From: Deltaproteobacteria bacterium
Lineage (GTDB): Bacteria > Myxococcota_A > Polyangia > JAAYKL01
Assembly (NCBI GenBank): GCA_028713995.1
Contig: JAQTNF010000004.1
Location: 17,563 to 81,562, forward strand
Length of the DNA stretch: 64,000 nucleotides
Direction: 5' to 3'
The position numbers and the translations under genes are program-made. Under the pieces are notes generated by a model. The model saw only the letters and a list, made by a program, of their open reading frames with translations, was not told the origin of the DNA and searched no databases. Below, in pieces: positions 16,645 to 41,329 of this stretch. The number at the start of each line of letters is the position of its first letter. Position 1 is the first letter of the stretch.

Positions 16645-16666
16645 TTCCCCTCCGTTTCTCCTTGAT

Positions 16667-21675: not shown

Positions 21676-22430
21676 GGCTCCGTCTTCTCTCGCTCGGTTT
21701 CCGTGTCGGCATTGGCTGCGTTGATCTGAGTCTCGTCGGCGGAAGAGCTCCGATATGCCCGGAGCACGACGCTGCGAGCCGCCAGCGAAGGGTCGTAGCA
21801 GCGAATCCCTGGCAAGAACTCGTATAGCAAGTGCTCCGCCATCCCGGCAGGCAGCTCCTCTCCCGCCTCGATCTGCTTCTTGTCTAGCAGCCGCACGAAC
21901 CGATGCCGCTCGAGCTGTTCGAACAAGGGCCGGGTCGCCTCGAAGATCCGCGCCTCCGGCGGGCATCCCTCGCCGAGCTCCTCGCGGAAGCGACGAAGGG
22001 CGAAGGTCACGAAGTCCGCCAGCAGGAACCGCAGATTACGATCCTCATCAGGCGTGACCCCCTGGCGCTGCCCCTCCTCCTCGTGGAACTCGAGCAGGAG
22101 GGCGAACAGCAAGCACTCATCCCGGCGGCGCAAGTCGAAGAGCGCGCGCTGCGACGGCCGCAGGGCCTCGTTGTACTGGCGCTCTTTGAGCAGGCGCGCG
22201 CACTGCCGGTCCACGTGGAGCCGCCAGCCGAAGTAGCCCTCGAACAGCTCGCGGAAGGCGGCTTGGTTGCGGCGCAGGAAGAAGAACAGATCGGCGTCGT
22301 CTTCCCGGTAGAAGAACGTGGACTCGGTGAGGACGTTGAGCACAGCCCGGACGCGCTCTCGTCCACGCCGGTCGAGCGCCAGAGCGTGAAGCTCCGTCCC
22401 TTCCTGCTCGGCGGGTCGTTCGTCAGCCAT
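21672..22430 (-). CDS. jetB: Wadjet JetB-like protein
   Basis: Start MADERPAEQEG; FFYREDDADLFFFLRRNQAAFRELFEGYFGWRLHVDRQCARLLK, JetB/DUF2398-like; overlaps jetA and jetC by a few nt. Confidence 0.8.
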   Translation of the reverse strand: MADERPAEQEGTELHALALDRRGRERVRAVLNVLTESTFFYREDDADLFFFLRRNQAAFRELFEGYFGWRLHVDRQCARLLKERQYNEALRPSQRALFDLRRRDECLLFALLLEFHEEEGQRQGVTPDEDRNLRFLLADFVTFALRRFREELGEGCPPEARIFEATRPLFEQLERHRFVRLLDKKQIEAGEELPAGMAEHLLYEFLPGIRCYDPSLAARSVVLRAYRSSSADETQINAANADTETEREKTEP

Positions 22431-23985
22431 GGCGTGCTCCGCCTCCTGCTCGGGCGAAGAGAAGGTCCGGCGCGTCCAGGCAACCATCCGGCAAGGCGAA
22501 GCGGGCTCTGGCGGCCGGCGCCCCGTCCTTTGCGGGTCGGCTGATGCGATAGGTGAGCAGTTTCCTTGCACGTCCAGAACGAAGCTCGTGCACCTTCACC
22601 GCGTCGAGCAGCGATCTGAAGTCGCCCATCCCCTCGAAGGCGGCCTTGCCGAGAGAGGCTTGCCACCCACCCCGCAGGATCTTCTCATCCACGAATCGAC
22701 CGAGTTCGAGCAACCTGAGCCGCTCGAGCGCCCGTGACTGCACCGGAGTGCCGCGCTTGTTCGAGAGGCACTCGCCTCGATGCGCCGTCCTCCTAATCTC
22801 GTAGCGTTTGGCCGGTCGCGGGAGCGAGGAGCGCTCGTCCGGCGTCCCGCAACGACGGTCCGTGACGACGTGCGCCGATGCGAACAGACCGTTGATCCAG
22901 GCGGTGACCGCCTCCACGTCGTCGTCCCCGATACGTGCCATCTCCCGAGACCGGTCGCGCAGCGTCTCGATGCGGATGTTGCGGCTGCGCACATTCTCCA
23001 CGTGCTTGTGGACGCGCCGCACCACGTCCCTGGCCGAGCCATGCACGCGTTCGAGCAGCGACTCGAAGCGGCCACCGGGCGCGAAGAATGGGACCAGTTC
23101 GCCGACGATCTGGCGAACGTCGCGAACGGTGGAAGGGGCTCCGCCCCCGGCGACGAGCGGGTCCTCGCGCAGCCGACGTTCTACGTGGTCGTGGGAGCGA
23201 GCAAGGACGGCCGAGAGCGCCGGCCGCAGGAGCTTGCGCGCAGTCCGGTGCATCGTCCTCGCGCGCTCTGTCGCCTCTGCCACGTAGTCCTCGACGTACC
23301 GTTCCAGCCGGTCCACCACTTCGGCCAGAGTCTCCAGACGAAATGGGCTTACGGTGAAGCCCACGAGCGCCGCGTCGAACGCCGCCAGCTCGCGCGCGGC
23401 ATCGTCGACCTTCCGGTCTACCTCCAGGCACAAATAGGCGAGGCGAAGGAGGTCGTCCGCAAGTGCAGGGTCTGGAGCATCGCCTTCGCCGGTCGGCTCC
23501 TTGGCGATCTTCTGGGCGAGTCGCAACGCCTCGGCGAGCCGCTCGCCTGCATCGCGCAGCAGGTGGCGGCCTCGGTCCGAGAGCGCGGCAAGGGCGGCGC
23601 GGGAACGGCTTTCGAGGAACTCAAGGATCGCCACGGTCTCGTCGTCGAGCCGGCAGAGGAATTTCTGCAGGCTGCGGTCGGCGAGCGTCTCGATCCGGCG
23701 CGGCTCCAGGCGCCGCGGGGCCAGGTTGCCCCAGTCCTCGAGCTGCTTGACGTCGCTCCGGAACGCATCCGGAGAGTATGGGCCCGGCTCCACCGTCGGA
23801 GCTACGCCGAGAGCCTCGATCATCAGGTCGTCGTAGTAAACCTCGATATCATGTGACCGTCGGTGGCCGAGGAGGACCCACAAGATCGCCGTGTAGGCCC
23901 GGCGCCGATCCGCGGTCAGAAAGCGCAACTTGTCGATCGGGATGGCCGCGATCAGGCTGTGCAGTTCTGCGTGCGCATCATGCAT
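22423..23985 (-). CDS. jetA: Wadjet JetA-like protein
   Basis: Start MHDAHAELHSLIAAIPIDKLRFLTADRRRAYTAILWVLLG...FRSDVKQLEDWGNLAPRRLEPRRIETLADRSLQKFLCRLDDETVAILEFLE, JetA/DUF2397-like; first gene of operon. Confidence 0.8.
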   Translation of the reverse strand: MHDAHAELHSLIAAIPIDKLRFLTADRRRAYTAILWVLLGHRRSHDIEVYYDDLMIEALGVAPTVEPGPYSPDAFRSDVKQLEDWGNLAPRRLEPRRIETLADRSLQKFLCRLDDETVAILEFLESRSRAALAALSDRGRHLLRDAGERLAEALRLAQKIAKEPTGEGDAPDPALADDLLRLAYLCLEVDRKVDDAARELAAFDAALVGFTVSPFRLETLAEVVDRLERYVEDYVAEATERARTMHRTARKLLRPALSAVLARSHDHVERRLREDPLVAGGGAPSTVRDVRQIVGELVPFFAPGGRFESLLERVHGSARDVVRRVHKHVENVRSRNIRIETLRDRSREMARIGDDDVEAVTAWINGLFASAHVVTDRRCGTPDERSSLPRPAKRYEIRRTAHRGECLSNKRGTPVQSRALERLRLLELGRFVDEKILRGGWQASLGKAAFEGMGDFRSLLDAVKVHELRSGRARKLLTYRISRPAKDGAPAARARFALPDGCLDAPDLLFARAGGGARHG

Positions 23986-24109
23986 ATGGCGCCTCACCGG
24001 TAGCCACCCGTTCGTCGCGCGAAAGAACGAAGCTAGGCGTTGCTCGCCACTGTTTTTGACGGTCCATTGACAATCCAGCGACTCGTGTTCGTTCTCAGTG
24101 TAAGACCTT

Positions 24110-24425: not shown

Positions 24426-27302
24426 ATGGCCCGCTTGTCCTCACCACCCGCCTCCTCGTCCGCCGTGATCGCCCCCGGCGCCCACATCGAGTTGCGCGAC
24501 GCGGTGTGGCGGGTCGTCAGCGTCGATCAGACCTCGAGCCAGCACTCCGCGTGGCGCTGCATCGGCGTTTCCGAGATCGTCCGAGACCAGGAGGCGGTGT
24601 TCCTGGAGGAGTTCGAGCCCAAGCTCCGGGTGCTCGACCCGCGCGAAACGAGGCTCGAGCAGGACCTGTCCTCTCACCACCGCGCCGGGCTCCTCTACAT
24701 CGAGAGCCTGTTGCGCGATGTGCCGCCGCCCGACGACGGTCTGTATGTCGGCCCGCTGGCGGCGATGGACCTACTCCAGTACCAGCTCGACCCGGCGTGG
24801 CAGGCGCTGCAGCGCCCACGCCAGAGGATCCTGATCGCCGACGCGCCGGGCCTGGGCAAGACGCTCGAGACCGGGATCCTGCTTTCGGAGCTCATCCGCC
24901 GCGGGCGCGGCCGGCGCATCCTCGTCGCCACGGTTCAGTCGAACCTCACGCAGTTCCAGAAGGAGATGTGGTGCCGGTTCTCGATCCCGCTCGTGCGCCT
25001 CGATTCGGCGGGCCTGCAGCGGATACGGGCCGACCTTCCCACGCACCACAACCCGTTCCACCATTTTGACCGCGTGATCATCTCCATCGACACGCTCAAG
25101 CAGAACAACTGGTTCCGCACGCACCTTGAGCGCTCCTACTGGGACATCATCGTCGTCGACGAGGCGCATAACGTCGCCACGCGCGGCTCGAGCCAGTCGA
25201 TGCGGGCGCGTATCGCCGATCTCCTTGCCACGCGCTGCGACAGCTTGATCCTCGTCTCGGCCACGCCGCACGACGGCAAGGCGCGCAGCTTCGCGAGCCT
25301 GATGAACATGCTCGACCCCACGGCCATCGCCGACCCGGACGACTACACCAAGGAAGACATCGGCGGCCTGTACGTCCGGCGCTTCAAGGGTGACGTCGCT
25401 GAAGAGCTCGGGAAGCGCATACCGGATCGGCGCATCAACACGGCATGGGCATCGGCGTCGTTGGCCGAGGAGCGGGCGTTCGAGACGCTGGCGAGCTTGT
25501 CGTTGTCCCGTGTCGACAAGTACCACACCGGCGAGCTCCTGTTCAAAACCACCATCGAGAAGGAGCTGTTCTCCAGTCCGGCCGCGTGCCTGTCGACGAT
25601 ACGCAACCGCATCCAGCGGATTGGGAAGCGCGAGGACGCGGACGATTTCGCCCAGGACGTTAAAGCGCTCGAGGCGCTCGCCGAGTACGTCCGCGCCGTG
25701 CACGAGGACGCCGGCGCGTTCAGCAAGTACGGCAAGCTGCTCGAGCTCATCCGCCACACTTGGAAGTGGAATCCGCGCAAGGCCAAGGACGACCGGATCG
25801 TCATCTTCACCGAGCGGCTCGAGACGCTCGCTTTCCTGGAGACGCACCTCGCCCATGACCTCGGTCTGGAGGAGGGGCAGTGGCACACGCTCGACGGCAG
25901 CATGTCCGACATCGAGCAGCAGGAGGTCGTCGAGGCGTTCGGCAAGGAGAAGGACCCGATCCGGCTCCTGCTCGCCACCGACGTCGCCGCCGAGGGGCTG
26001 AATCTCCACTACCTCTGCCACCGGCTCGTCCACTTCGACGTGCCGTGGTCGCTTATGAAGTTCCAGCAGCGCAACGGCCGTATCGACCGCTACGGGCAGG
26101 AGTGCGAGCCACATATCGTCTACATGCTCACCAAGACCGACCACGCGGCGATCCGCGGCGACATGCGCATCCTGGAGCTGCTCATCGAGAAGGACACGCA
26201 GGCGAACAAGAACATCGGCGACCCGTCCGCGTTCATGAACGTGTACGACATCGACGAGGAGGAGCTGATCACCGGGCGGGCCATCGAGGCGGGCCAATCG
26301 GCCGAAAAGTTCGAGGCGGAGCTCGAGGCCCGGTTCGTCGACCCGTTCGCCGTGATGCTCGGCGAGGCCACCGTGTCGCCAAGGGGCAAGGCGCCGACCC
26401 GCACGCTCTCCTCCCTGTTCGCGTCGGACTTCGACTACCTCTCCATGGCCGCTGCGCGGTTGCGCGAGACGATCAAGCTCGAATGCGAGCTGCGCCCCAA
26501 CGAGAAGCTGGCCGAGCTGCGCATCCCCGACGACCTGCGGCGTCGCCTGCGCAAGCTGCCCGCCGAGGCATTCCCGGACGACGGGACGCTGCTCCTAACC
26601 TCGGACACGGCGCGCATGCAGCAGGCGCTCGCCGATGCCCGTCGCGAAGAGAACACTTGGCCCGTGCACCAGTTCCTGTGGCCGAACAGCCCGATCCTGC
26701 AGTGGGTGGGAGATCGAGTGCGCAGCGAGTTCGGTCGCCACGCAGCGCCAGTGCTCACCGTCAACGACGGGTTCAACCCGGGTGAGGTCGTCGTGATCGT
26801 TTCCGGGCTCCTGCCGAACCGGCGGGCGCAGCCGCTCGTCCACAACTGGTACGCGGTGCGCTTCGAGAAGAACAAGGTGAAGGAGGTGGAGCCATTCCGC
26901 TCCTTCCTGGAGAGGACCAGCTTCGGCCGGCGCGATCTGCCCAACGCCAAGAACGCCGTCGACATCGACGCGCTCACCCAGCTCCTGCCTATGGCAGTCG
27001 AGGTCGCGGGCAACAAGCTCGAGGAGGATCGGCGCGTGTTCATCGAGCGGACCGCCCCGCGCCTGCGCGAGGAAAAGACCCGGCTCGAGCGGCTGCGCGG
27101 CCGGCAGCTCGAGTTTGCCGAGCGCATCCTCGGCGAGCGGACGGACAGCCTCGCCACGCAGAAGCACGACAACAAGAAGCTGCACATCGAGAAGGTGTTC
27201 AGCGCCTACGAGCAGTGGGTGGTGGACGCAATGACCGTCGGCGCCGCACCGTTCATCCAGGTGGTCGCGGTGCTCGTCGCGCAGGACGGGGGGCGGCGAT
27301 GA
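24426..27302 (+). CDS. SNF2-family helicase, DrmD-like (DISARM class 1-like)
   Basis: 958 aa; ILIADAPGLGKTLETGILLSELIRRGR, IIVVDEAHN, LILVSATPHDGK, LLLATDVAAEGLNLHYLCHRLVHFDVPWSLMKFQQRNGRIDRYGQ. Confidence 0.85.
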   Translation: MARLSSPPASSSAVIAPGAHIELRDAVWRVVSVDQTSSQHSAWRCIGVSEIVRDQEAVFLEEFEPKLRVLDPRETRLEQDLSSHHRAGLLYIESLLRDVPPPDDGLYVGPLAAMDLLQYQLDPAWQALQRPRQRILIADAPGLGKTLETGILLSELIRRGRGRRILVATVQSNLTQFQKEMWCRFSIPLVRLDSAGLQRIRADLPTHHNPFHHFDRVIISIDTLKQNNWFRTHLERSYWDIIVVDEAHNVATRGSSQSMRARIADLLATRCDSLILVSATPHDGKARSFASLMNMLDPTAIADPDDYTKEDIGGLYVRRFKGDVAEELGKRIPDRRINTAWASASLAEERAFETLASLSLSRVDKYHTGELLFKTTIEKELFSSPAACLSTIRNRIQRIGKREDADDFAQDVKALEALAEYVRAVHEDAGAFSKYGKLLELIRHTWKWNPRKAKDDRIVIFTERLETLAFLETHLAHDLGLEEGQWHTLDGSMSDIEQQEVVEAFGKEKDPIRLLLATDVAAEGLNLHYLCHRLVHFDVPWSLMKFQQRNGRIDRYGQECEPHIVYMLTKTDHAAIRGDMRILELLIEKDTQANKNIGDPSAFMNVYDIDEEELITGRAIEAGQSAEKFEAELEARFVDPFAVMLGEATVSPRGKAPTRTLSSLFASDFDYLSMAAARLRETIKLECELRPNEKLAELRIPDDLRRRLRKLPAEAFPDDGTLLLTSDTARMQQALADARREENTWPVHQFLWPNSPILQWVGDRVRSEFGRHAAPVLTVNDGFNPGEVVVIVSGLLPNRRAQPLVHNWYAVRFEKNKVKEVEPFRSFLERTSFGRRDLPNAKNAVDIDALTQLLPMAVEVAGNKLEEDRRVFIERTAPRLREEKTRLERLRGRQLEFAERILGERTDSLATQKHDNKKLHIEKVFSAYEQWVVDAMTVGAAPFIQVVAVLVAQDGGRR

Positions 27303-30300
27303 TCGGCATCGGAAACGTCCAGGAGTTCTACACGAACCACTACCTGGCCGCGATCATCCACGGCGACATCCGTCCGGTCATCCAGAAATGGCTGGAGGCG
27401 TCCCGCGAGGGCGACGACCGCTCGCCCCATCGGCAGCTCGCCGGCATGCAGCAGCCGTTCTTTCGCTACCGGGACCGTCTGGGCCGCCTGAAGAACGCCG
27501 AGCCGCGGGTCGAGGCGCACGCGGAGATGCAGGCGCAGCTCCTCGACGCGCTTGGGTACACGGTGCGCCGGCTTCACCGACACGTGCCGTCCGGGCCGCT
27601 CCCGCTGTTCGGGGAATGGCGTCGCGGCGACGGGTCGCCTCTGCTCTGGTTGCTGCCGGTGGCGAGTGGTCACGATCAGCAGGGCGACGTCCTCGGCATG
27701 AAGCTCCTGCCCGAGCAACACGCCCTCGTGCCGGACAAGCCGCTGGACTTCGACCCGGGGAAGATCGGCGAGCGCTCCGTGGAAGAGCTCGTCACCGAGG
27801 CGTTCGGCCTGGAAGAGGCGCCGCGGTTCCTGCTCGTGCTCGGCGACACGGAGTGGGTGCTCGCCGACCGCGACAAGTGGGCCGAGCAGCGGATGCTCCG
27901 CTTCGACTGGGCAGAGATTCTGGGCCGCCGCGAGGACGAGGCCCTGCAGACCGCTGCGGCGATCCTTCACCGCGATTGTCTGGCGCCAGAGTCCGGGACC
28001 GCGCTCGTCGACACCCTGGACGACAGCTCCCACAAGCACGCCTTCGAGGTGAGCGAGGATCTCAAGTACGCCCTGCGCGAGTGCATAGAGCGCCTCGGCA
28101 ACGAGGCGATCCGCTACCGCCGCGAGGTGAGCAAGAAGAAGGTGTTCGGCGAGGAGATCAGCGGCGCGGAGCTGTCCCGGGAGTGCCTGCGGTTCATGTA
28201 CCGCATCCTCTTCTCCCTGTACGTCGAGTCGCGGCCCGAGCTCGGCTACGCGCCGACGCAGGAGGAGTCGTACCGGCTCGGGTACAGCTTCGACCGCTTG
28301 CGCGACCTCGAGACGGTCGAGCTCGAGACCCCCGAGGCGAGGAACGGCTTCTACATCCACGAGAGCTTGCAGCGGCTCTTCCAGATGATCTACGACGGCA
28401 CGTCGGTCGAGGCGCAGCACGCGCTGTTCGGCGCCGACGGCAAGGCCCGCGCCGACCTCGCCGAGGACGAGTCGCTCTCGTTGCACCACACGTTCCGGAT
28501 GGTGCCGCTCCGCGCGCACATCTTCGACCCGTCCCGGACGTTGTTCCTGAATCAGGTGCGCCTGCGAAACGAGGTGCTGCTCGAGGTCATCAAGCTGATG
28601 AGCCTCTCGCGGCCCCAGGGTACGGGCAAGTTCAAGCGACGCGGGCGCATCTCCTACGCCACGCTCGGCGTGAACCAGCTCGGCGCGGTGTACGAGGCGC
28701 TCCTCTCCTTCCGCGGGTTCTTCGCCGAGGAGACGCTGTATGAGGTGAAGTCCGCGGAACAGGAGGCGCCGAACCCGCTCGACGTCGCCTACTTCGTGCC
28801 CGAGGCGGACCTCAAGCGGTACTCCAAGGCGGAGCGCGTCTACGACGAGGAGACCCAGGATCTGAAGTCATACCCGCCCGGGACGTTCATCTACAGGCAG
28901 GCGGGCCGCGACCGCGAGAAGTCGGCGTCGTACTACACGCCCGAGGTGCTCACCCGCTGCCTCGTCAAATATGCGCTCAAGGAGCTGCTCGAGGACGAGA
29001 AGGGAAAGCTCAAGCTCAAGGCCGAGGAGATCCTGAAGCTCACCATCTGCGAGCCGGCGATGGGGAGCGCGGCGTTCTTGAACGAGGCGATCAACCAGCT
29101 CGCCGAGAAGTACCTCCAGGCGCGGCAACACGAGCTCGGTGAGCGCATCCCGCACGAGACGTACCAGGGCGAGCTGCAGCGCGTGAAGATGTACCTCGCC
29201 GACAACAACGTGTTCGGCGTGGACCTGAACCCGGTGGCGCTCGAGCTCGCCGAGGTGTCGCTGTGGCTGAACGCCATCTTCTCGGAGGAGACGCCGCAGG
29301 GGCGGCGCGTGTTCGTGCCGTGGTTCGGCGCCCAGCTCTCGTGCGGCAATAGCCTGGTCGGTGCGTGGCGCAAGGTGTTCCCGGCGGCGAGCGTGGATCC
29401 GGGCAAGAAGCGCGACAAGGCGGCGTGGCTCGACGCGGTGCCCGAGCGCGTTCCTCTGGGTCAGAAACGTGCGGCCGGGTCGGTGTACCACTTCCTCCTG
29501 CCGGACAACGGGATGGCGACGTACGGCGAGGGGTCGGAGGGCAAGCCGATCAAGGAGATGTGCGGCGACGCGCTCAAGGGGATTAAAAAATGGCGCGGCG
29601 AGGTGTGTGCGCCGCTCGATCCGGACGAGACTCAGGCGCTCTCCCGGCTCTCGGACGCGGTGGATCGCCTGTGGGGCAAGCACGCGGAGCTGCTCAAGAA
29701 GCTGCGCCTGCGCACCACCGACCCTCTCGCGGTGTACGGGTTCCATCACCCGCGCGCCGGCGAGCAGCCGACCACGACCGAGGAGAAGGACCGGATCTGG
29801 GCCAAGGAGATGGAGAGCGCCCAGGTGCGCGCCGCGAGCCCGTACCGCCGGCTCAAGCTCGCCATGGACTACTGGTGCGCGCTCTGGTTCTGGCCCATCG
29901 AGAAGGTGGGGCTCCTGCCCGAGCGCGACGAGTGGCTCGCGGACATGGCGCTCCTCCTCGATACAGACGTGCTCCCGCAGCTCGTGGGCGACCGGCAGCG
30001 GGATCTGTTCGCCCCGACCATGCCGTCGGAAGACGCGAAAAAGCTCGCCGACGAGGTCGGCATCGTCGACGTGGACAAGCTGATCGGGCGCTCGGAGCGG
30101 CTGAAGCTCGTGGACAAGCTGTCGCAGCGCTACCGGTTCCACCACTGGGAGCTCGAGTTCGCAGACATCTTCGCGGAGCGGGGAGGATTCGACCTGATCT
30201 TGGGGAATCCTCCGTGGATTCGCGTCGAGTGGAAAGAGGCGGGCGTGCTCGGCGATCACGACCCGGCGTTCGTGCTCAAGAAGCTCTCCGCGCCCGAAAC

Positions 30301-32134
30301 CGCGAAGCTACGTGCCAAGGCCATCGAGGAGCACAACATCCTCTCCGACTACCTCGCCGCGCACGAAGAGTCGTCTGGTCACCAGGCGGTGTTCACATCG
30401 AAGCAGCTCTACCCGGAGCTCGTCGGTGTGAAGGCGAACCTCTACAAGTGCTTCCTGCCGGTGGCGTGGCAGGTGGGGAAACGCGATTCGGTCGCGGGTT
30501 TCCTGCACCCGGAGGGAATCTACGATGACCCAGGCGGCGGCTCTTTGCGCCGTGTAAGCTACCCGCGTCTCAGGCGGCATTTTCAATTCTCAAACGAAAA
30601 GAAGCTGTTTCCAGTAGGAAACCGAGAACGGTTCAGTATCAACGTTTACGGCCCCAAGACCCCTATTGAATTCGACCACATCGCCAATCTGCTTCTGACC
30701 ACAACGATAGACGAATGCTATTCCCATGCCGGACAGGGTGCGGTTCCCGGGATAAAAACTGACGAAGATGACTGGGACCTTGCCGGTCATCGGGATCGAA
30801 TCATTAGCATAGGCGAGGAGCAGCTGACCCTGTTCGCTAGGCTGTTTGATGAGGAGGGCACACCCCCTGTTGAGGCCCGGTTGCCGGCCCTTCATGCGGG
30901 CCAACTCCTCGGCGCGTTGGAAGCGTTCACCGCTGCACCACAACGCCTAAGTGACGTGGAGCGTTGCTTCCCGACGTTCCATTTCAACGAAACCTACGCG
31001 CAGCACGACGGTACTATTAAGCGTGGCACACGGTTTCCGAAAAAACCCAGCGAGTGGGTTATCTCGGGGCCACATTTTTTCGTTGGTACGCCAACCTACC
31101 AAACACCCAAGCGCGTCTGTGAGACGCATCGTGCCTATGACTCACTAGACCTCGTTAGCCTGCCCGATGACTATATGCCCCGCACCAACTACGTTCCGGC
31201 GTGCACGTCAGTCGAGTATCTGAAACGCACACCTGACGTGCCTTGGTCGAAAGAAATCGGGCCCAGGAAGGTAACGGAGTATTACCGGTTAATTGCGCCA
31301 AAGATGATAGGTCCTGCCGGAGAGCGAACCCTCCAACCTGCAGTTGCACCGCGAGACGTAGCCCACATTGAGGCGGTCTATGGTTTCATTTTCTATGATC
31401 AGAAACTGATGACACAGGCTGCTGCGACTTGGATGGGAATCACGAGCGACTTCTTGATTAAAACATTGGGGATTACCAATTTTCGCCCCAATATTGCCCG
31501 CCAGCTACCCATTATCACCGACTTCGAGCAGGAGCTCCGCCTCCGCGCGTGCGTGCTCAACTGCCTGACCACGCACTACGCCGACCTCTGGTCGCTCTGC
31601 TATGACAAGTCGTGGAAGAAGGACACCTGGGCCAAAGAAAGCGACAGCCGGCTCGACCCGAAGTTCTTCGCGAAGCTCGGCCCCACGTGGAACCGCGACT
31701 CGGCGCTCCGCTACGACTACGCCCGCCGCCAAGCGCTCGTGGAGATCGACGTGCTCGTGGCGATGGGGCTCGGCATGACGCTCGAGCAGCTCCAGACGAT
31801 CTACCGGATCCAGTTCCCGGTGATGCGTGGCTACGAGAAGGACACCTGGTACGACGCGCGGGGCCGGATCGTCTTCACGAACAGTAAGGGGCTTCCCGGT
31901 GTGGGACTTCCTCGCGCCAAGGCAGCGAACCACCCGGACGGCCCGTACTGGAACGACGTGAAGGAGATGACCTCGGGCAAGGTCACGCAGGTCGTCGAGG
32001 ACGACACCTTGCCCGGCGGGCCGTACGAGAAGACCATCGAGTACGTCGCCCCGTGGACCCGCTGCGACCGCGAGCGCGACTACGAAGAGGTCTGGGCGCA
32101 CTTCGAGAAGAGGTTCGGGAGGAAGTACCTGTGA
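27299..32134 (+). CDS. Large N6-adenine DNA methyltransferase (DrmMI-like / Eco57I-like)
   Basis: 1611 aa; SAD-type motif I EPAMGSAAFLNEAINQLAEKYL and motif IV FDLILGNPPWIRVEW; ATGA overlap with the helicase. Confidence 0.88.
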   Translation: MIGIGNVQEFYTNHYLAAIIHGDIRPVIQKWLEASREGDDRSPHRQLAGMQQPFFRYRDRLGRLKNAEPRVEAHAEMQAQLLDALGYTVRRLHRHVPSGPLPLFGEWRRGDGSPLLWLLPVASGHDQQGDVLGMKLLPEQHALVPDKPLDFDPGKIGERSVEELVTEAFGLEEAPRFLLVLGDTEWVLADRDKWAEQRMLRFDWAEILGRREDEALQTAAAILHRDCLAPESGTALVDTLDDSSHKHAFEVSEDLKYALRECIERLGNEAIRYRREVSKKKVFGEEISGAELSRECLRFMYRILFSLYVESRPELGYAPTQEESYRLGYSFDRLRDLETVELETPEARNGFYIHESLQRLFQMIYDGTSVEAQHALFGADGKARADLAEDESLSLHHTFRMVPLRAHIFDPSRTLFLNQVRLRNEVLLEVIKLMSLSRPQGTGKFKRRGRISYATLGVNQLGAVYEALLSFRGFFAEETLYEVKSAEQEAPNPLDVAYFVPEADLKRYSKAERVYDEETQDLKSYPPGTFIYRQAGRDREKSASYYTPEVLTRCLVKYALKELLEDEKGKLKLKAEEILKLTICEPAMGSAAFLNEAINQLAEKYLQARQHELGERIPHETYQGELQRVKMYLADNNVFGVDLNPVALELAEVSLWLNAIFSEETPQGRRVFVPWFGAQLSCGNSLVGAWRKVFPAASVDPGKKRDKAAWLDAVPERVPLGQKRAAGSVYHFLLPDNGMATYGEGSEGKPIKEMCGDALKGIKKWRGEVCAPLDPDETQALSRLSDAVDRLWGKHAELLKKLRLRTTDPLAVYGFHHPRAGEQPTTTEEKDRIWAKEMESAQVRAASPYRRLKLAMDYWCALWFWPIEKVGLLPERDEWLADMALLLDTDVLPQLVGDRQRDLFAPTMPSEDAKKLADEVGIVDVDKLIGRSERLKLVDKLSQRYRFHHWELEFADIFAERGGFDLILGNPPWIRVEWKEAGVLGDHDPAFVLKKLSAPETAKLRAKAIEEHNILSDYLAAHEESSGHQAVFTSKQLYPELVGVKANLYKCFLPVAWQVGKRDSVAGFLHPEGIYDDPGGGSLRRVSYPRLRRHFQFSNEKKLFPVGNRERFSINVYGPKTPIEFDHIANLLLTTTIDECYSHAGQGAVPGIKTDEDDWDLAGHRDRIISIGEEQLTLFARLFDEEGTPPVEARLPALHAGQLLGALEAFTAAPQRLSDVERCFPTFHFNETYAQHDGTIKRGTRFPKKPSEWVISGPHFFVGTPTYQTPKRVCETHRAYDSLDLVSLPDDYMPRTNYVPACTSVEYLKRTPDVPWSKEIGPRKVTEYYRLIAPKMIGPAGERTLQPAVAPRDVAHIEAVYGFIFYDQKLMTQAAATWMGITSDFLIKTLGITNFRPNIARQLPIITDFEQELRLRACVLNCLTTHYADLWSLCYDKSWKKDTWAKESDSRLDPKFFAKLGPTWNRDSALRYDYARRQALVEIDVLVAMGLGMTLEQLQTIYRIQFPVMRGYEKDTWYDARGRIVFTNSKGLPGVGLPRAKAANHPDGPYWNDVKEMTSGKVTQVVEDDTLPGGPYEKTIEYVAPWTRCDRERDYEEVWAHFEKRFGRKYL

Positions 32135-32814
32135 GCAAGAAAACGAAAACCGATCTGGGCACATGCTACATGTGCGATCAAAGAGCCACGACACGCGAGC
32201 ACGTTCCGCCACAGTGTCTTTTCCCAGAGAAGAAGGACACCCCAGACGGTACTGACTATCGCATTAACCTCGTCAAAGTGCCGTCATGCGCGATCCACAA
32301 CCTCAGCAAGTCCGCGGATGACGAGTACCTAATGGCGATTCTCGTCATGCCTATTGGAAACAATGATGTCGCGGTGCTTCATGCCGGTTCGAAGGTTCTG
32401 CGAGCGTTGGTTCGAAATAACGGTGCACTTGTAAAAAAAGTACTGCACAAGATTCGGCCAGTAGAAGTTGATGGTCAACCCACACTAGCCGTGAAGATTG
32501 ACACCCCGCGAATCTACGCCGAACTGGAGAAGATCGGTCGAGCTCTCTATTTCAAACACTTCGGCAAAAAGTGGGTCGATCAAGTTTTCGTCGCCACGGC
32601 CTCCGCATTTTCCGAGGACCCGAACGTGAACAAGCTCGCACCAATGCTCAAGGAGCTTGACGCACGGTTGTTCGGTGGACTTCCACGCTATGGGGAAAAC
32701 CCGGACGTGTTTTTCTACCAGGTCACTCCGCAGGAAGCGCTGCCCCAAGCTGCAATTCGCATGGTTTTCTACGGAGGCTTCGAGGCAGTCGTCGTAAAGA
32801 AAATGGATGTATAG
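32131..32814 (+). CDS. HNH-like/zinc-finger protein embedded in operon
   Basis: GTG start overlapping the methylase stop; CYMCDQRATTREHVPPQCLFPEKKD...LVKVPSCAIHNLSKSADDEYL (CxxC...EHVPP...CxxHN) HNH-like. Confidence 0.7.
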   Translation: MSKKTKTDLGTCYMCDQRATTREHVPPQCLFPEKKDTPDGTDYRINLVKVPSCAIHNLSKSADDEYLMAILVMPIGNNDVAVLHAGSKVLRALVRNNGALVKKVLHKIRPVEVDGQPTLAVKIDTPRIYAELEKIGRALYFKHFGKKWVDQVFVATASAFSEDPNVNKLAPMLKELDARLFGGLPRYGENPDVFFYQVTPQEALPQAAIRMVFYGGFEAVVVKKMDV

Positions 32815-32855
32815 GAAATGATGTTCCGGCCGAAATGCCTTCACGAGGTGTGCTG

Positions 32856-35800
32856 ATGATCCCGTCTGCTCTTACCGCCCAGCTACAGCAGGGTCTCGCC
32901 GACTTCCTGCGTTACTCGTTCTGGTCGTCGACGCCGGGCATGGAGCACGTCATCGAGGATCTCATCGACGCACCGGGTGGCGTGACGCACGGCCCGTACC
33001 TGTCGGTGAAGCTGCCGTTCGCCAGCGGATCCAAGCGGAACTTCTTCACAGACGTGCCGCTCGGCTTCACCCCTCACGCCCACCAGGAGCGCGCGTTCGA
33101 GCGCCTTGGCGGGAAGGAGAAGCGGAGCACCCTCGTCGCCACGGGCACGGGCTCGGGCAAGACCGAGTGCTTTCTGCTCCCGATCCTCCAGCACTGCGCC
33201 GAGACCGCGAACGAGCCGGGCATCAAGGCGATCCTGATCTACCCGATGAACGCGCTCGCCACGGACCAGGCCGAGCGCATCGCGCGGCTCATCTACGACA
33301 ACCCCAAGCTGCGCGGCCGGGTCACGGCCGGGCTGTACATCGGCGAGTCCAAGGGCAAGAAGCGCACGGCGGAAGAAGGGATGGGGCCGCGCCACATCGT
33401 CACCGACCGCGACGTGATGGAGAAGAGCCCGCCGCACATCCTGCTCACCAACTACAAGATGCTCGACCTCCTGATGCTCCGGCCGTGGGTGCAGGGCATC
33501 TGGCGCCACAACCGCCGCGGCGACCTTCGCTACCTCGTGGTCGATGAGCTGCACACGTTCGACGGCGCGCAGGGCACGGACCTCGCGTGCCTGATCCGGC
33601 GGCTCAAACGCCTCCTCCAGGTGGACGACGGGTCGCTTTGCTGCGTGGGTACGAGCGCCACTTTGGGCGGTGCCGGCGCTAAGAAGCAGCTCCTCGACTA
33701 CGCCGGCCAGGTGTTCGGCGAGCCGTTCGACGACGGGGCGCTCATCGGCGAGTCGCGGCTCGACGCGCCCGGGTTCCTCGCCGGCGCCGATGCGACGTTC
33801 ACCGACGAGCCGGACCTTTCCGACCTCGATGCGCTCGCGGCCGAACGATACGACGATTCCGAAACTTGGCTGCGCGAGCAGGTGCGTCTCTGGTTCGGCG
33901 GAGTCCATGAAACCGCGGACCCGGAGAGTTGGGCGGTGGAGCTCGGCGAGCGGCTCCGGTGCCATGCGGCGTTCCGTGCGCTCCTCGGACTGCTCGACGG
34001 GCACGTCGTCGGTCTCGGCGACGCGGTGCAGTCGCTCTCCCGGGCCCGCACCTCATGGCGCCAATCGCCGCACCTCGGTCGTGCTGCGCTGCTCAGCCTG
34101 CTCGGCCTCGTCTCTGCCGCCCGTCGCCGGGTCGAGGTCTCGCCCGGCGTCTTCGAGACGACCCGCTTCCTCGACGTCCGGATCCAGCTCTGGCAGCGGG
34201 AGATGGCGCGCATGGTCGCGACCGTGACGCAGCGGCCGAGGTTGCGGTTCTCCGACGACCTCGACAAGGAGCAGAAGCGGGAGCATCTGCCGCTCGCCCA
34301 ATGTCGCGATTGCGGCGCCATGGGATGGGGCACGCGGATCGACAAGAACAAGCCGCACGTCCTGCGCTGCGAGCCGAGCGCCTTCTACTCCGCCTTCTTC
34401 CGGAACGACGACCGCGTGGTGTTCCTGTATCCGGCCGCGGCCATACCGCCGGGCGACCCGGTCTGGGAAAGCCGGAGAGTCAGAAGGGTCGATAGCAAGA
34501 ACCTGGTCATCCTGCAGGACGACGAGGAGCCCGGCGGCGAGGTCGTCGAGCTCGTCGAGGTCAAGAACGTGCGACAGACCGACTCCGGGCCAGTGTTGCA
34601 CCGAGACTGTCCGTTCTGCGACGCGCGGGAGAGCCTCGCCCTGCTCGGGTTCCGCGCCGCGACGCTTACGAGCGCGTACATCGATCAGATGTTCGCGTCA
34701 CGCTTCAACGACGAGCGGGACAAGAAGGTGCTCGCGTTCTCGGACAGCGTACAGGACGCGGCGCACCGCGCCGGCTTCTTCAGCGCACGGACGTGGCACA
34801 CGAACCTCCGTGTCGGGATCTCGCGGGTTCTGTGTGACGGCCACGACGGCGCGACCCTCGCCGAGCTCTCTGATGCATTCGTGCGGTACTGGCAGAAAAA
34901 GCTCGACCCGCAGACATGGATCGCGACGTTCCTCGCGCCCAACATGAACTGGCTCCACGACTGGGATGCCCTTCAGCGCGACGGCAAGCTCCCGGTCGGC
35001 TCGGACCTGCCAGCGCTCGTGGCGAAGCGGCTCGCGTTCGAGCTCGTCAACGAGTTCGGGCTCCAGGCGACCATCGGGCGCTCGTTGCCGCGGACAAAGG
35101 CGGCGACCGCTTACATCGACCGCGAGAAGCTCGACGAGACGTGCGCGATGCTGCTCGAACCGCTGCGAAACGAGGTGCCAGGGCTCAAGGGCGCGACCCT
35201 CGCACAGGTGAGAGCGTTCGTGCTCGGAGTCCTGCACCACCTGCGCCTGCGCGGCGGGATCCTGAGCGCCGAGATCCCGGAGGAGTACCTGAAGACGGCC
35301 GGCGACAAGACGTTCATGTTCAACATCTCGCCGCACCTGCCGTCGTTCGCGAAGACGTCGCGCATGTTCGCCTTCATCACGGATCGCCCCGGCAAGCGGC
35401 GGTTCGACTCCTGGTTCGAATCCGCGTCGAAACACTCCGGGTGGTACGAACGCTGGCTCTCCCGCTGCTTCACCCACGACGCCGCGCTCGGCGCCGACGC
35501 ACCGTCCGCGTACCCACCGGCGCTCGCGGCGCTGACCGCGAAGGGGTTGCTCGCCGAAATCGAGGCCGCCAGCAAGACCCGCGTGTGGGGTATCCCGGAA
35601 TCGGCGCTATGCGTGACCCGAGACGTCGTGACCGTGCACTGCGCGAAGTGCGATCACCGCCAGGTCGTCGCCCGGGTCGAGGCGGAGGACTGGTTGAGCG
35701 CTCCTTGCGCCACGGCCCGCTGCGACGGTCGCTACGAGGTCGAGGAGCAGACGCGCCCGGACTACTTCGGCCGGTTGTACGCGCACGGCGACCTGCAGCG

Positions 35801-38800
35801 CATCTACACCGCCGAGCACACCGGGCTCCTGACGCGCGAGGAGCGGGAGCTCGTCGAGCGCCAGTTCAAGGCGGAGACCCGCGCGACCGATGGAAATGGG
35901 GAAGAGGGCGGCGCATCGATTTCGCGGCGCCCGTGGTACCCGAACCTGCTCTCGTGCACGCCGACGCTGGAGATGGGCATCGACATCGGCGACCTGTCGT
36001 CCACGGTCCTGTGCACCGTGCCGCCGACCCAGGCGAGTTACCTGCAGCGCATCGGGCGCGCTGGCCGGCGGGAAGGCAACTCGTTCGTGCTGACCGTCGC
36101 CAACGCCCGGCCGCACGACCTCTACTTCTACGCCGCGCCCGAGGAGATGATGGAGGGGGACGTTCTGCCTCCGGGCGTGTTCCTCGACGCCTCGGCCGTG
36201 CTCGAACGCCAGCTCACCGCCTTCTGCTTCGACCGCTGGGTGGCGAGCGAGGGCGACAAGGCCGTGCTCCCGGCGCACCTCAAAGACGTGCTCTCGCGCA
36301 TCGGAGATCGCGGCGGCACCCACTTCCCGCACAACCTCCTCGCCTTCATCGAACGCGAGCAGCCGACCATCCTGCGCGAGTTCGACGAGATGTTTGCCGG
36401 CCGGATCAGCCCGACGACCCGGGCGCACCTGCGCGCCTTCCTCGTCGGCGACGAGGCGAACAAGGCCGGGCTCGGGTGGCGCCTGCTCGACACGTTCGCG
36501 CGGGAGAAGAAGCAGCTCGACAGCTTCCAGGCCAAGGCGCGGCAATTGAGCGCCGAGATCAAGAAGCTCGAAGCGAGCGAGACCAAACCCCAGGACTACG
36601 AAGATCGGCTTGGCAAGCTGGAGGACGAGAAGGAGGCGCTGCAGGGGCTCATCAACGGCATCAAGGGCAGCGGCAACAGCGCGTCCGGGCATGCGCCGGG
36701 ACGCCAGACGCTCGAGTTCCTCACGGACGAAGGCCTCCTGCCCAACTACGCCTTCCCGGAGACCGCGGTGCGGCTCCGGTCGGTGATCTGGCGGCGCAAG
36801 AAGCGCGTCAGCTCCCAGGGGAGCAAGTACGACACCTGGACCTACGAGTACGCGCGGTCGCCGAGCAGCGCCCTCTCGGAGTTTGCGCCGCACGCCGATT
36901 TCTACGCCGGCGGCCGGCACGTCAAAATTGACCAGGTCGACGTGACGATGTCCGAGATCGAGACGTGGCGGTTCTGCGCCGCGTGCAACCACGCCCAGCG
37001 CGACGACATCGGCGAGAAGTCGTTCTCGTGTCCGGCGTGCGGCAGCACGGCCTGGGCGGATGACGAGCAGAAGCTTCGCCTGCTCCCGCTGAAACAGGTG
37101 TTCGCGAGCGCGCCGGATCGTGAGAGCCGCATCCGGGATGAGCGTGACGAGCGGCAGCCACGCCACTTCCTGCGGCAAATCCTCGTCGACCACCACGATG
37201 TGGACCGGGAGGCTGCGTGGTCCCTCGACGAGCCATCGTTGCCGTTCGGATTCGAGCTCCTGCGGCGGGCCACGTTCCGAGAGCTCAACTTCGGCGTGAA
37301 CATCGACCAGGGACCGAGGACCGACATCGCCGGGAAGAATGCGGCGCGGCCGGGATTCCGAATTTGCACGCGCTGCGGCAAGGTCCAGCCCGACCACAGC
37401 CCGTCGGAGCACGCACCCGCCTGCCCGACCAAAACGCGCGGCGAGAAGGAGTCGGTCGAGCCGTGCCTCTACCTGTATCGGGAGTTCAGCTCTGAGGCGT
37501 TGCGATTCCTGCTGCCGATGGCGGATGTCGGTACTCGGCTGCAGCTGAACTCGTTCCTCGCCGCGTTACAGCTCGGGTTGCGGGAGCGCTTCGGCGGCAG
37601 CGTCGAGCACATCAAGACGACCGTGTACTCGGAGCCCGACCGGGCGAGCTCACTGCGGCGGCAGTACCTCGTCCTGTTCGACAGCGTTCCCGGCGGCACC
37701 GGCTACGTGAAGCAGCTCGTGACCCCGCCTGCCGAGGGCGGCGTGCTCCCGATCCGCGAGGTGCTCGAGCTGGCGCGCAAGCGGATTGAGAGCTGCACGT
37801 GCTGGACCGATCCCGAACGCGACGGCTGCTACCGGTGCCTGCTCGCCTATAGGAACGCCAAGGAGATGGACGACACCTCCGCCCACGAGGCGGTGCAGCT
37901 CATCGGGAAGATCCTCTCCCGGTGGGACAAGCTCAAGCCGATCCCCTCCCTGGGCGACGTCTCGGTGAGCGGCTTGATGGACAGCGTGCTCGAGGCGCGG
38001 TTCATCGAGGCGCTGAAGCAGACCTCATACGGTGGACATCCGAACCGCGTGAAGCACGCGGTGTTCCGCCAGAAGCCCTGTTACCACCTGACCGTCGGCG
38101 AGCAGGAGTGGTACGTCGAGCCGCAGTGCGACGTCGACCACGCGGACAGCTTCGGCATCGTCTATCCCGTCGATTTCGTGCTGTGGCCCGCCGGGCACGC
38201 GACAGCCGAGAAGAGAGACCCGATTGCCGTTTTCCTCGACGGTTTCGAGTTTCACAAGGGGCGCGTCGGGCTCGACATGTCGCAGCGGCAGCGGATGCTG
38301 GCGTCCGGGTCGTGGGACGTGTGGAGCCTTACCTGGTTCGACCTCGACGAGGCGCTTGGGACGCGGCGGCCGGACAACAAGCCAGTGAACCTGGTCCATG
38401 CGAACCTCCAGGAGTTGCGGGATCGATTGCAGGCGTTCGGGCTGGGCGCGTATCGCGATTGGGGCGAGCGCCCAATCTTCGACCTGTTCCTCGCGGACAT
38501 CGGCGATGTCGCTCTCGTGCCCTGGAAGCAGCTGGGCGAAGGGATGCTCGCGAGCCGGATGACGCCGGCGCAGCCCGATAGCGGAACCGTCTGGGCGGCA
38601 GCTGTGAGACAGATGGCGCCGATGCCAGTTCGACCCTTGCTCGATATCGCGACGTGCAAGTTGCAGCTCGCGGACGACGGGGCTCTCAACCCCTGGGTGT
38701 CGGTCCACGCGGTGCACGACGGCCAGAACGTGAAACTTCTCGCGCAGCTCGACGACCGTCCCGATAACCGTGAGCAACCTGGGTTCCGGGAGGCGTGGAA

Positions 38801-39215
38801 CGGATACCTGCGGCTGTTCCAGCTCCTCCGACAGGTTCCGGGCGGCTGGTTCTTCACGCGCACCGGGAACGAAGAGTTCGACAGCGTGCCGCTCATCCAG
38901 CTCCGGAGTGGTCCCGCGGAAGGTGCGCCTTGGTCGACTCTCAACGTGGGGCGTGCGTTCGTGCCCCTGTGTGAGGAGCTCCAGAGCGCGGGCGTCGACA
39001 AGCCTGAGGTCGGTTTGGACATCCCGAATGCCGGAGGTGGCGTCTGGGCCGAGGGTGAGCTCGTCTGGGAGGATCGACGCATCGCGGTGACGGACAAGGC
39101 GCGCATCGGTGATGCCGTCGGCGAAGTGGCTTTGGGGTGGAAGGTGTTCGCGGTCGAGGATCTCGCGTCCATCGACCCACTGCTCGCAGCGTTGAAAACG
39201 GAAGGAGGCGCCTGA
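32856..39215 (+). CDS. Giant DEAD/DEAH-box helicase with C-terminal DUF1998 (DrmA/DrmB-like or DruE-like)
   Basis: 2119 aa; TLVATGTGSGKTECFLLPIL, YLVVDELHTFDGAQG, CVGTSATLGG, YLQRIGRAGRREGNSFVLT; DUF1998-like LVLFDSVPGGTGYVKQL...CTCWTDPERDGCYRCLLAYRNA; several CxxC pairs. Confidence 0.9.
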   Translation: MIPSALTAQLQQGLADFLRYSFWSSTPGMEHVIEDLIDAPGGVTHGPYLSVKLPFASGSKRNFFTDVPLGFTPHAHQERAFERLGGKEKRSTLVATGTGSGKTECFLLPILQHCAETANEPGIKAILIYPMNALATDQAERIARLIYDNPKLRGRVTAGLYIGESKGKKRTAEEGMGPRHIVTDRDVMEKSPPHILLTNYKMLDLLMLRPWVQGIWRHNRRGDLRYLVVDELHTFDGAQGTDLACLIRRLKRLLQVDDGSLCCVGTSATLGGAGAKKQLLDYAGQVFGEPFDDGALIGESRLDAPGFLAGADATFTDEPDLSDLDALAAERYDDSETWLREQVRLWFGGVHETADPESWAVELGERLRCHAAFRALLGLLDGHVVGLGDAVQSLSRARTSWRQSPHLGRAALLSLLGLVSAARRRVEVSPGVFETTRFLDVRIQLWQREMARMVATVTQRPRLRFSDDLDKEQKREHLPLAQCRDCGAMGWGTRIDKNKPHVLRCEPSAFYSAFFRNDDRVVFLYPAAAIPPGDPVWESRRVRRVDSKNLVILQDDEEPGGEVVELVEVKNVRQTDSGPVLHRDCPFCDARESLALLGFRAATLTSAYIDQMFASRFNDERDKKVLAFSDSVQDAAHRAGFFSARTWHTNLRVGISRVLCDGHDGATLAELSDAFVRYWQKKLDPQTWIATFLAPNMNWLHDWDALQRDGKLPVGSDLPALVAKRLAFELVNEFGLQATIGRSLPRTKAATAYIDREKLDETCAMLLEPLRNEVPGLKGATLAQVRAFVLGVLHHLRLRGGILSAEIPEEYLKTAGDKTFMFNISPHLPSFAKTSRMFAFITDRPGKRRFDSWFESASKHSGWYERWLSRCFTHDAALGADAPSAYPPALAALTAKGLLAEIEAASKTRVWGIPESALCVTRDVVTVHCAKCDHRQVVARVEAEDWLSAPCATARCDGRYEVEEQTRPDYFGRLYAHGDLQRIYTAEHTGLLTREERELVERQFKAETRATDGNGEEGGASISRRPWYPNLLSCTPTLEMGIDIGDLSSTVLCTVPPTQASYLQRIGRAGRREGNSFVLTVANARPHDLYFYAAPEEMMEGDVLPPGVFLDASAVLERQLTAFCFDRWVASEGDKAVLPAHLKDVLSRIGDRGGTHFPHNLLAFIEREQPTILREFDEMFAGRISPTTRAHLRAFLVGDEANKAGLGWRLLDTFAREKKQLDSFQAKARQLSAEIKKLEASETKPQDYEDRLGKLEDEKEALQGLINGIKGSGNSASGHAPGRQTLEFLTDEGLLPNYAFPETAVRLRSVIWRRKKRVSSQGSKYDTWTYEYARSPSSALSEFAPHADFYAGGRHVKIDQVDVTMSEIETWRFCAACNHAQRDDIGEKSFSCPACGSTAWADDEQKLRLLPLKQVFASAPDRESRIRDERDERQPRHFLRQILVDHHDVDREAAWSLDEPSLPFGFELLRRATFRELNFGVNIDQGPRTDIAGKNAARPGFRICTRCGKVQPDHSPSEHAPACPTKTRGEKESVEPCLYLYREFSSEALRFLLPMADVGTRLQLNSFLAALQLGLRERFGGSVEHIKTTVYSEPDRASSLRRQYLVLFDSVPGGTGYVKQLVTPPAEGGVLPIREVLELARKRIESCTCWTDPERDGCYRCLLAYRNAKEMDDTSAHEAVQLIGKILSRWDKLKPIPSLGDVSVSGLMDSVLEARFIEALKQTSYGGHPNRVKHAVFRQKPCYHLTVGEQEWYVEPQCDVDHADSFGIVYPVDFVLWPAGHATAEKRDPIAVFLDGFEFHKGRVGLDMSQRQRMLASGSWDVWSLTWFDLDEALGTRRPDNKPVNLVHANLQELRDRLQAFGLGAYRDWGERPIFDLFLADIGDVALVPWKQLGEGMLASRMTPAQPDSGTVWAAAVRQMAPMPVRPLLDIATCKLQLADDGALNPWVSVHAVHDGQNVKLLAQLDDRPDNREQPGFREAWNGYLRLFQLLRQVPGGWFFTRTGNEEFDSVPLIQLRSGPAEGAPWSTLNVGRAFVPLCEELQSAGVDKPEVGLDIPNAGGGVWAEGELVWEDRRIAVTDKARIGDAVGEVALGWKVFAVEDLASIDPLLAALKTEGGA

Positions 39216-41329
39216 TGCCCCCCTTGAAAGAGGCGTTCCGGGTCGCGATCTTCGACGAGTTCCTCGACGCGTTCGCGAAGATCCCGCGGGCCCAGCAGAA
39301 GAAGGTCAACAAGTTCATCCGCATGTTCCGGGAGAACCCGACGAGCGGCGCGATCAACTATGAGGGGATCTCCTCATTCAGCGACCCGAACCTCAAGACC
39401 GTGCGCATCGACCAGGCGTACCGGGCCATCGTGCTCAAGCCGGAGACCGGCAACGTGTACGTGCTCCTGTGGGTGGACAACCACGACGCGGCGATGGCGT
39501 GGGCCAAGAACAAGCGCGTCGCCATCCACCCCGAGACCGGCTCGCTGCAGGTGCTCACTGTGCACGAAGGCGAGAGGCGACCTTCGCAGCCGCCGCCGGC
39601 CGGAACCAAGGCGTTGTTCGAGAAGATCCGAGACCGCGAGCTGCTGCGGCTCGGCGTGCCGACGGAACTCCTGCCGCAGGTACGCGAGGTTCACGATCAA
39701 GAGCAGCTCGACGGGCTGGAGTCGACCCTGCCGGCCGAGGCGTATGAAGCGCTCTTCTTCCTCGCCGAGGGCGAGCCGCTCGCGGACGTCGAGGAGGCGC
39801 TCGCCGTTGCCGACGTCACGAACGTGGACGTCAACGACTTCGACGCTGCGCTCGACCGGGACGCCTCCAAGCGCCGGTTCGTGATCGTGGACAACGACGA
39901 GCTGCTCGAGTCGATGCTCGACGCGCCGATGGAGAAGTGGCGCATCTTCTTGCACCCGAACCAGCGGCAGCTCGTCAACCGGTCGTGGCCCGGACCGGTC
40001 CGCGTTCTGGGCGGCGCCGGCACCGGCAAGACCGTGGTCGCGATGCACCGGGCCGCGTACCTCGCCGAGAAGCTGTTCACGAAGATCGAGGATCGCATCC
40101 TGTTCACGACGTACACCGTGAACCTGGCGGCGGACATCGAGGCGAACCTGCGCAAGCTCATGTCTCCTGCAGCGCTGCGCCGCATCGAGGTGGTGAACCT
40201 GGATCGGTGGGTCGCCGGGCTCCTGCGACGGAGCGGATACGAGTACAAGGTGGCCTACTGGCCGACCGACAAGGGCCTCGCCGCCGCCTGGGACAAGGCG
40301 ATGACGCTCGCGAACGAGGGCGCGTTCCCGAAGAACTTCTTCCGGGACGAGTGGGAGCTCGTCGTGCAGGCGCAGGGGTGCGCGCGCTGGGAGGACTACC
40401 AGGCGTCGTCGCGCTCGGGACGCAGCGTGCGGCTCTCGCGCAAGCAGCGCCAAGAGATCTGGCCGGTGTTCGAGGAGTACCGGAACCAGCTCGAGAAGCA
40501 GGGGTTGCGGGAGCCCGAAGATGCGATTCGGGACGCGACCGCGCTGGTCAAGAGCGGCAAGGCCCAGGTGAGCTACCGCGCCATCGTCGTCGACGAGGCA
40601 CAGGACATGAGCACCAACGCCTTCACGCTGCTCCGGCAGATCATCCCCGAGGAGCGGGCCGACGACCTTTTCATCGTCGGCGACGGGCACCAGCGGATCT
40701 ACCGCCGACAGGTCGTGCTCGGGCGCGCGGGCATCAACGTCCGCGGACGGCGCGGGCGGCGACTCCGCATCAACTACCGCACCACGGAGGAGATCCGGAG
40801 GTTCGCCGTGTCACTGCTCGAGGGCGTGCATGCCGACGACCTCGACAACGGCGAGGACACCACCAAGGGCTACAAGTCGCTGATGCACGGCGAGGCACCG
40901 CACGTCGAGAGCTTCCCGACGCTCGACGCCGAGGTCGTGGCCATCGCCAAGTGGTTGAAGACCGGAAATCTCGAGCAGACGTGCCTCGTCGCGCGCACGA
41001 ACGACTGGCGGGACAAGTACGCCGCCGCCCTCGAGAAGCGCGGCATCCCGGTATACGCGCTCAAGCGCTCCGAGGCCGAGGACACCTCCAAGCCGGGGCT
41101 GCGCGTCGCGACGATGCACCGGGTCAAGGGGCTCGAGTTCTCGCGCGTCGTCATCGCCGGCGTGAACGAGGGGCTCGTCCCGTCGAAGGACGCCATCGAG
41201 AAGTCCGCCGACGAGGCGGTTCGCTCCGAGGCCGAGGATCGCGAACGTGCGCTGCTCTACGTCTCCACGACACGGGCCAAGAAGGATGTGCTGATCACCT
41301 CGTGTGGGAAGCCAAGCAAGTGGGTGTGA
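39215..41329 (+). CDS. UvrD/SF1 helicase with N-terminal RelE/ParE-like domain
   Basis: 704 aa; N-terminal FDEFLDAFAKIPRAQQKKVNKFIRMF...LKTVRIDQAYRAIVLKPETGNVYVLLWVDNHDAAMAWA, then [65 protein letters not shown]. Confidence 0.85.
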   Translation: MPPLKEAFRVAIFDEFLDAFAKIPRAQQKKVNKFIRMFRENPTSGAINYEGISSFSDPNLKTVRIDQAYRAIVLKPETGNVYVLLWVDNHDAAMAWAKNKRVAIHPETGSLQVLTVHEGERRPSQPPPAGTKALFEKIRDRELLRLGVPTELLPQVREVHDQEQLDGLESTLPAEAYEALFFLAEGEPLADVEEALAVADVTNVDVNDFDAALDRDASKRRFVIVDNDELLESMLDAPMEKWRIFLHPNQRQLVNRSWPGPVRVLGGAGTGKTVVAMHRAAYLAEKLFTKIEDRILFTTYTVNLAADIEANLRKLMSPAALRRIEVVNLDRWVAGLLRRSGYEYKVAYWPTDKGLAAAWDKAMTLANEGAFPKNFFRDEWELVVQAQGCARWEDYQASSRSGRSVRLSRKQRQEIWPVFEEYRNQLEKQGLREPEDAIRDATALVKSGKAQVSYRAIVVDEAQDMSTNAFTLLRQIIPEERADDLFIVGDGHQRIYRRQVVLGRAGINVRGRRGRRLRINYRTTEEIRRFAVSLLEGVHADDLDNGEDTTKGYKSLMHGEAPHVESFPTLDAEVVAIAKWLKTGNLEQTCLVARTNDWRDKYAAALEKRGIPVYALKRSEAEDTSKPGLRVATMHRVKGLEFSRVVIAGVNEGLVPSKDAIEKSADEAVRSEAEDRERALLYVSTTRAKKDVLITSCGKPSKWV

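Follow-up and report, generated by a model that had tools for sequence, protein, structure and literature searches.

The ARMADA defence systems were first described in 2025. Type II, which consists of ArmA-ArmB-ArmC-ArmD, was shown in a preprint of that year to protect E. coli (PMC12458937); residue N971 of the NPPW motif of ArmB was mutated in that study (N971A), and the motif is needed for defence (PMC12458937). The main text of the preprint contains no description of exchange of the ArmB recognition region or of its alleles (PMC12458937). ArmB resembles the BREX methylases PglX/BrxX in combining an adenine methylase, a target-recognition domain (TRD) and a conserved C-terminal domain (PMC11842806, PMC11341690), and the structural TRD of PglX (residues 651-837) is the most variable part of that protein (PMC11842806). 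Type IIG/IIL enzymes, e.g. MmeI, likewise carry the methylase and a C-terminal recognition domain in one chain. In HsdS, the separate specificity subunit of type I restriction systems, two recognition modules are inherited separately and are accompanied by conserved connectors, and recombination changes the specificity; in ArmB, by contrast, both modules lie within the methylase chain.

The window (the whole 64,000-nucleotide stretch of DNA that was analysed) contains a methylase gene that its sequence and neighbours identify as armB; the defence operon to which it belongs is ARMADA Type II-like (Table 1). The gene order, ArmA-ArmB-[extra gene]-ArmC-ArmD, is that of ARMADA Type II with one gene added between armB and armC, unlike the ARMADA of E. 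coli NCTC 12900/ATCC 8739, which has the same operon order without it (PMC12458937). The window ArmB is ~47% identical to Escherichia ArmB over the full length. It carries a SAM motif (CEPAMGSAAF) near residue 584 and the NPPW motif at residue 970 (nt 30206; N970 here, N971 in the E. coli protein, PMC12458937). The latter is present without exception in 49 ArmB homologues. The assignment of armC is based on profile matches to DruE/YprA-like families. Our Pfam scan reported neither the RelE-like N-terminus of ArmD nor the Vsr-type C-terminus of ArmC, both of which the preprint had obtained from structure prediction.

Table 1. Features of the ARMADA-like operon and of its armB gene (window coordinates).
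Feature	Position	Strand	Description
armA	24426..27302	+	BrxHII/DrmD-like SNF2 helicase, 958 aa
armB	27299..32134	+	PglX-like adenine methylase, 1611 aa; ARMADA Type II-like operon
Low-GC patch of armB	30479..31513	+	codons 1061-1405; best two-breakpoint GC3 model
TRD1 module	30551..31123	+	codons ~1085-1275; exchanged between close homologues; placed by alignment to Escherichia alleles
Conserved connector	31139..31258	+	codons ~1281-1320; LPDDYMPRTNYVPAC
TRD2 module	31271..31633	+	codons ~1325-1445; many close homologues unalignable here
Extra gene	32131..32814	+	227 aa, GC3 0.58; starts with GTG, which overlaps the stop codon of armB; cargo of the armB-armC junction
armC	32835..39215	+	YprA/DruE-like helicase with MZB (DUF1998-type) domain, 2126 aa; profile matches
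armD	39137..41329	+	GajB-like UvrD helicase, 730 aa

The relationship of ArmB to the known enzymes was examined at the level of profiles. An hhalign comparison of ArmB with PglX was significant only at the SAM motif, the C-terminal half reaching a probability of 2%, so the homology of the ArmB TRD is deduced from its position and behaviour. A low-confidence alignment sets the ArmB motif ARQLPI opposite VRKFPVI of PglX (~836), where the PglX TRD ends. Searches with the profile and with the single sequence revealed no PDB relative (the sole match, to MYB at E 0.25, was a chance one). We rejected the identification of the window protein as a BREX PglX: it scored 26 and 20 bits with the NCBIfam PglX models, against cut-offs of 900 and 500, and no BREX partner genes were found among the operon proteins scanned. 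The best PADLOC match of the whole protein was to IIG models, only in the sense of the best whole-length match; no nuclease domain was found in the chain by Pfam, and a Type IIG restriction enzyme was therefore rejected as well. No Pfam family, the MmeI TRD included, matched the patch.

The initial annotation had noted a low-GC patch at 30540-31510, and this patch is real. The sliding GC content of the window is 0.61-0.71 up to ~30.45 kb, 0.51-0.57 at 30.45-31.65 kb and at least 0.65 thereafter, and analysis by codon position revealed that the drop falls almost wholly at third positions. In the best two-breakpoint model, whose borders differ from the original ones by no more than ~60 bp, GC3 is 0.59 inside the patch and 0.93 outside it. 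The log-likelihood ratio, taken from the coarser scan that served for the permutation test, was 100.9, whereas 300 random codon orders never exceeded 10.9. Both edges are sharp (nt 30461-30524 and 31495-31531, within 3 lnL), and the right one falls within the ARQLPI motif (residues 1400-1405). Hand counts made at the outset had correctly indicated a drop but overstated it, giving 45-50% GC in 60-nt lines, since the average of the patch is ~55%. A second patch, similar in composition (GC3 0.58) and absent from the initial finding, covers the extra gene that follows armB. When 400 kb of this genome were scanned for comparison, GC3 dips of up to 0.43 appeared in several stop-to-stop frames that had not been curated, versus 0.34 over 345 codons in armB; the larger dips probably reflect spurious frames, and we used them as evidence neither way.

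A locus scan yielded 80 related loci, from which 71 near-full-length ArmB homologues were aligned. The patch region is nearly gap-free and of nearly constant length across the family. For these mostly distant relatives, the mean identity to the window protein was 0.48 in the patch, 0.48 in the N-terminal part and 0.55 in the C-terminal part; the patch is thus no more divergent than the N-terminal part, a result that by itself seemed to argue against domain swapping. Alignment of close homologues gave a clearly non-uniform picture, with the divergence confined to the region: identity was 86-97% before it, 48-63% inside and 83-87% after it. The respective values were 0.97/0.59/0.83 for Serratia versus Yersinia, 0.94/0.56/0.87 for two Methylococcales-type copies, 0.91/0.49/0.85 for two Nostoc copies, 0.86/0.48/0.84 for two other cyanobacterial copies and 0.92/0.63/0.83 for a further pair. 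In such pairs the flanks are of recent common origin, yet the identity inside is down near the family floor.

The structure of the variable region was resolved using Escherichia alleles. A match to armB was found in 518 genomes of an E. coli collection; 12 alleles were taken and compared with that of Escherichia sp. L038 (13 alleles in all). DNA identity in the flanks is mostly 94-100%, and the region between them is composed of two modules, TRD1 and TRD2, separated by a conserved connector. DNA identity between types is 0.5-0.75 in TRD1 and 0.37-0.5 in the core of TRD2, which is effectively unalignable, while the connector remains ~0.95 identical between most alleles though both modules have been exchanged. 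At the protein level, the mean identities of the 13 alleles were 0.98 (N-terminal part), 0.65 (TRD1), 0.89 (connector), 0.40 (TRD2) and 0.98 (C-terminal part). In the window copy, only the first part of TRD2, up to 31513, has low GC3.

Six TRD1 types and nine TRD2 types were distinguished among the 13 alleles. Allele L125 has exactly the TRD2 of L038 with a different TRD1, and L126 has the TRD1 of L038 with a different TRD2. The TRD1/TRD2 types 0/0 (L038), 0/4 (L129), 1/0 (L125) and 1/4 (L130) represent all four possible combinations, a four-gamete condition that requires recombination or recurrent exchange. Thus, TRD1 and TRD2 reassort independently of each other and of the flanks in the Escherichia alleles. 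One exception is L135, in which the exchanged block begins earlier (~codon 980) and includes the connector. TRD modules are also shared across lineages: between one E. coli allele and that of Halomonas maura, identity is 77% in TRD2 and 50% in the N-terminal part.

Nine E. coli BREX pglX alleles (L161, L187-L194) served as a positive control. Their codons ~521-960 span the structural TRD and show identities of 0.3-0.6 (higher at the methylase end) with a GC3 of mostly 0.23-0.35, versus distal flanks that are mostly 0.9-1.0 identical, with a GC3 of mostly 0.5-0.8. In enzymes of this kind, therefore, a proven recognition domain presents as an AT-shifted mosaic. The variable part of PglX forms one continuous block in the alleles compared, in contrast to the two blocks and conserved connector of ArmB. 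We also observed that the same pglX alleles are only ~0.7-0.8 identical in DNA at codons 321-520, i.e. in the methylase core before the TRD; exchange tracts may thus be longer in PglX than in ArmB.

Of the 72 ArmB genes, 71 showed a GC3 deficit in the region, and AT-rich flanks made no exception. After correction for amino acid composition, 70 of the 71 homologues had low GC3 over the patch (-0.16 on average; window copy -0.34). GC3 recovers in the connector in most homologues, but not in the window copy, whose connector is also low. Across the 72 genes the GC3 of the modules follows that of the flanks (slope 0.90, r 0.88), with a mean deficit of 0.11 even where flank GC3 is <0.5; the drop of the window copy ranks sixth of 72 and lies 1.3 SD below the family line. 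No comparable internal dip was detected in ArmA, ArmC or ArmD, whose lowest 50-codon bins reach -0.06 to -0.105, versus ~-0.25 in 25-codon bins of TRD2. Since the drop is a standing feature of the family, low GC alone does not show recent foreign import, and since it follows host composition, a single foreign pool whose composition is fixed cannot be its source. Third positions of recognition modules were seen to be AT-shifted in ArmB genes with AT-rich or GC-rich flanks, and also in E. coli PglX.

As regards the origin of the patch in the window copy, the flank tree placed this copy with L029 and L004 (SH-aLRT 99), L032 being next, and the patch tree placed it with L029, L032 and L004 (93); no incongruence between patch and flanks was found for it. 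Among 377 genomes of the phylum, no relative more than 59% identical to the window ArmB was detected, and the search of viral contigs and plasmids for a donor-like match to the patch gave nothing closer than 54%. The initial annotation had read the patch as a target-recognition domain swapped by recombination under phage pressure. For the ArmB family, the sequence comparisons (the mosaic in close relatives and the reassortment of modules) give good support to an exchangeable recognition domain, in the form of two modules with a connector and not of a single block. The evidence does not extend to the window copy: the step from composition to foreign import is weak there, because the drop is family-wide, no close relative is available and the two trees agree. 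That this copy was itself swapped, and from which source, would be argued from its composition and by analogy with the family.

We consider it very probable (about 0.86) that the patch corresponds to the target-recognition region of ArmB and that this works as an exchangeable cassette region; ArmB is the methylase of this ARMADA Type II-like anti-phage operon and probably its specificity subunit as well. Through homologous recombination, for which the conserved flanks and connector would provide the sites, TRD1, TRD2 or both would be replaced while the methylase core and the C-terminal domain stayed unchanged, and a single step would give the cell a new motif for methylation and self-recognition. 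Each module would read part of the target, and phages would select for the exchange. The composition argument of the initial annotation, taken literally, describes something else, namely that one AT-rich donor passed the segment to the window copy in a single event and that the low GC is this donor's fingerprint. The sharp patch edges, a drop at the strong end of the family range and a connector that is low in GC3, unlike that of most homologues, are in keeping with such an event, but it seems unlikely given that nearly all homologues share the drop, that TRD GC3 tracks the flanks even when these are AT-rich, and that viral contigs and plasmids provided no donor-like match.

Divergence in place, by point mutation under positive selection and with low GC3 as the product of AT-biased mutation, would need no cassettes at all, and both the nearly constant length of the domain and the lack of tree incongruence in the window copy taken alone would fit it. 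It is nevertheless highly improbable: alleles with 94-99% identical flanks have modules that are either identical or unalignable, in four combinations, and in some pairs a module is better conserved than the flanks, which point mutation does not give. For the Escherichia alleles specifically, independent reassortment of the modules refutes this explanation; it may still apply to the window copy. Low GC3 could also be maintained for translation pausing or for reasons of mRNA, unrelated to exchange; the dip does occupy the same place in different phyla and does scale with the composition of the flanks. Such codon-level selection leaves the mosaic unexplained, and the recovery of GC3 in the connector, the dip that E. 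coli PglX shows across the region it exchanges and the lack of a comparable dip in the other three operon proteins speak against it, so that we regard it as improbable. Two sharp composition edges within one gene might point to an assembly chimera or a misread frame, but the armB frame continues through both edges as a single open frame of 1611 aa with no stop, and the patch is ~39-54% identical to every homologue, in register and nearly gap-free, which makes an artefact of this kind a negligible option.

More tentatively, and with a chance somewhat short of even, the specificity of ArmB may be combinatorial, i.e. two half-cassettes, inherited separately and each reading part of the target, would be shuffled in the manner of HsdS within a single-chain methylase and would retain a lasting AT-shift in most or all lineages. 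Two candidate causes of the AT-shift may be considered: the flanks undergo homologous exchange, with GC-biased gene conversion, from which non-homologous, non-pairing alleles may be excluded, or the modules may circulate on AT-richer mobile elements that form a reservoir in each lineage.

The armB-armC junction (32131-32834 in the window) is a general cargo (insertion) slot of the ARMADA operon. Both genes could be located in 57 loci, the gaps being approximate because tblastn was used to place them; they adjoin in 15 of these, and in the other 42 they are separated by 0.7-9.5 kb with additional ORFs. The cargo genes are mostly co-directional (the loci include L020, L021, L023, L029, L043, L047 and L052), and of ten cargo ORFs that were tested, nine gave matches to PADLOC defence models, the stronger ones being to ZorA, PifA, TmtA, LeoB, HEC-01A, PDC-S68 and MkoA, and those to pAgo and GajB partial or weak. 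The protein encoded by the extra gene of the window has an HNH-like zinc motif (CxxC..EHVPP..C..HN) and no Pfam or NCBIfam match. Its relatives occur on 11 plasmids (annotated, where at all, only as hypothetical proteins) and three times in genomes of the phylum, with none in the ArmB loci. One relative (L159) was seen by eye to lie directly beside a RapA/DrmD-like helicase gene. On the minus strand of the window, positions 22423-23997 encode a DUF2397 protein with a weak match to JetA (Wadjet-type), adjoining long minus-strand ORFs (14989-22571); together these are possibly a second defence system beside ARMADA.

The exchange of recognition domains is a mechanism of an already known kind; its presence in ArmB, with two independently inherited modules and an AT-shift that tracks the host, appears to be undescribed. 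The Escherichia alleles with near-identical flanks are a ready set for mapping module to motif. The family-wide AT-shift is a warning that patches of this sort should not be taken for recent imports from a foreign source, and its constancy in recognition cassettes, whatever the widely differing GC content of the hosts, poses an evolutionary puzzle that can be tested.
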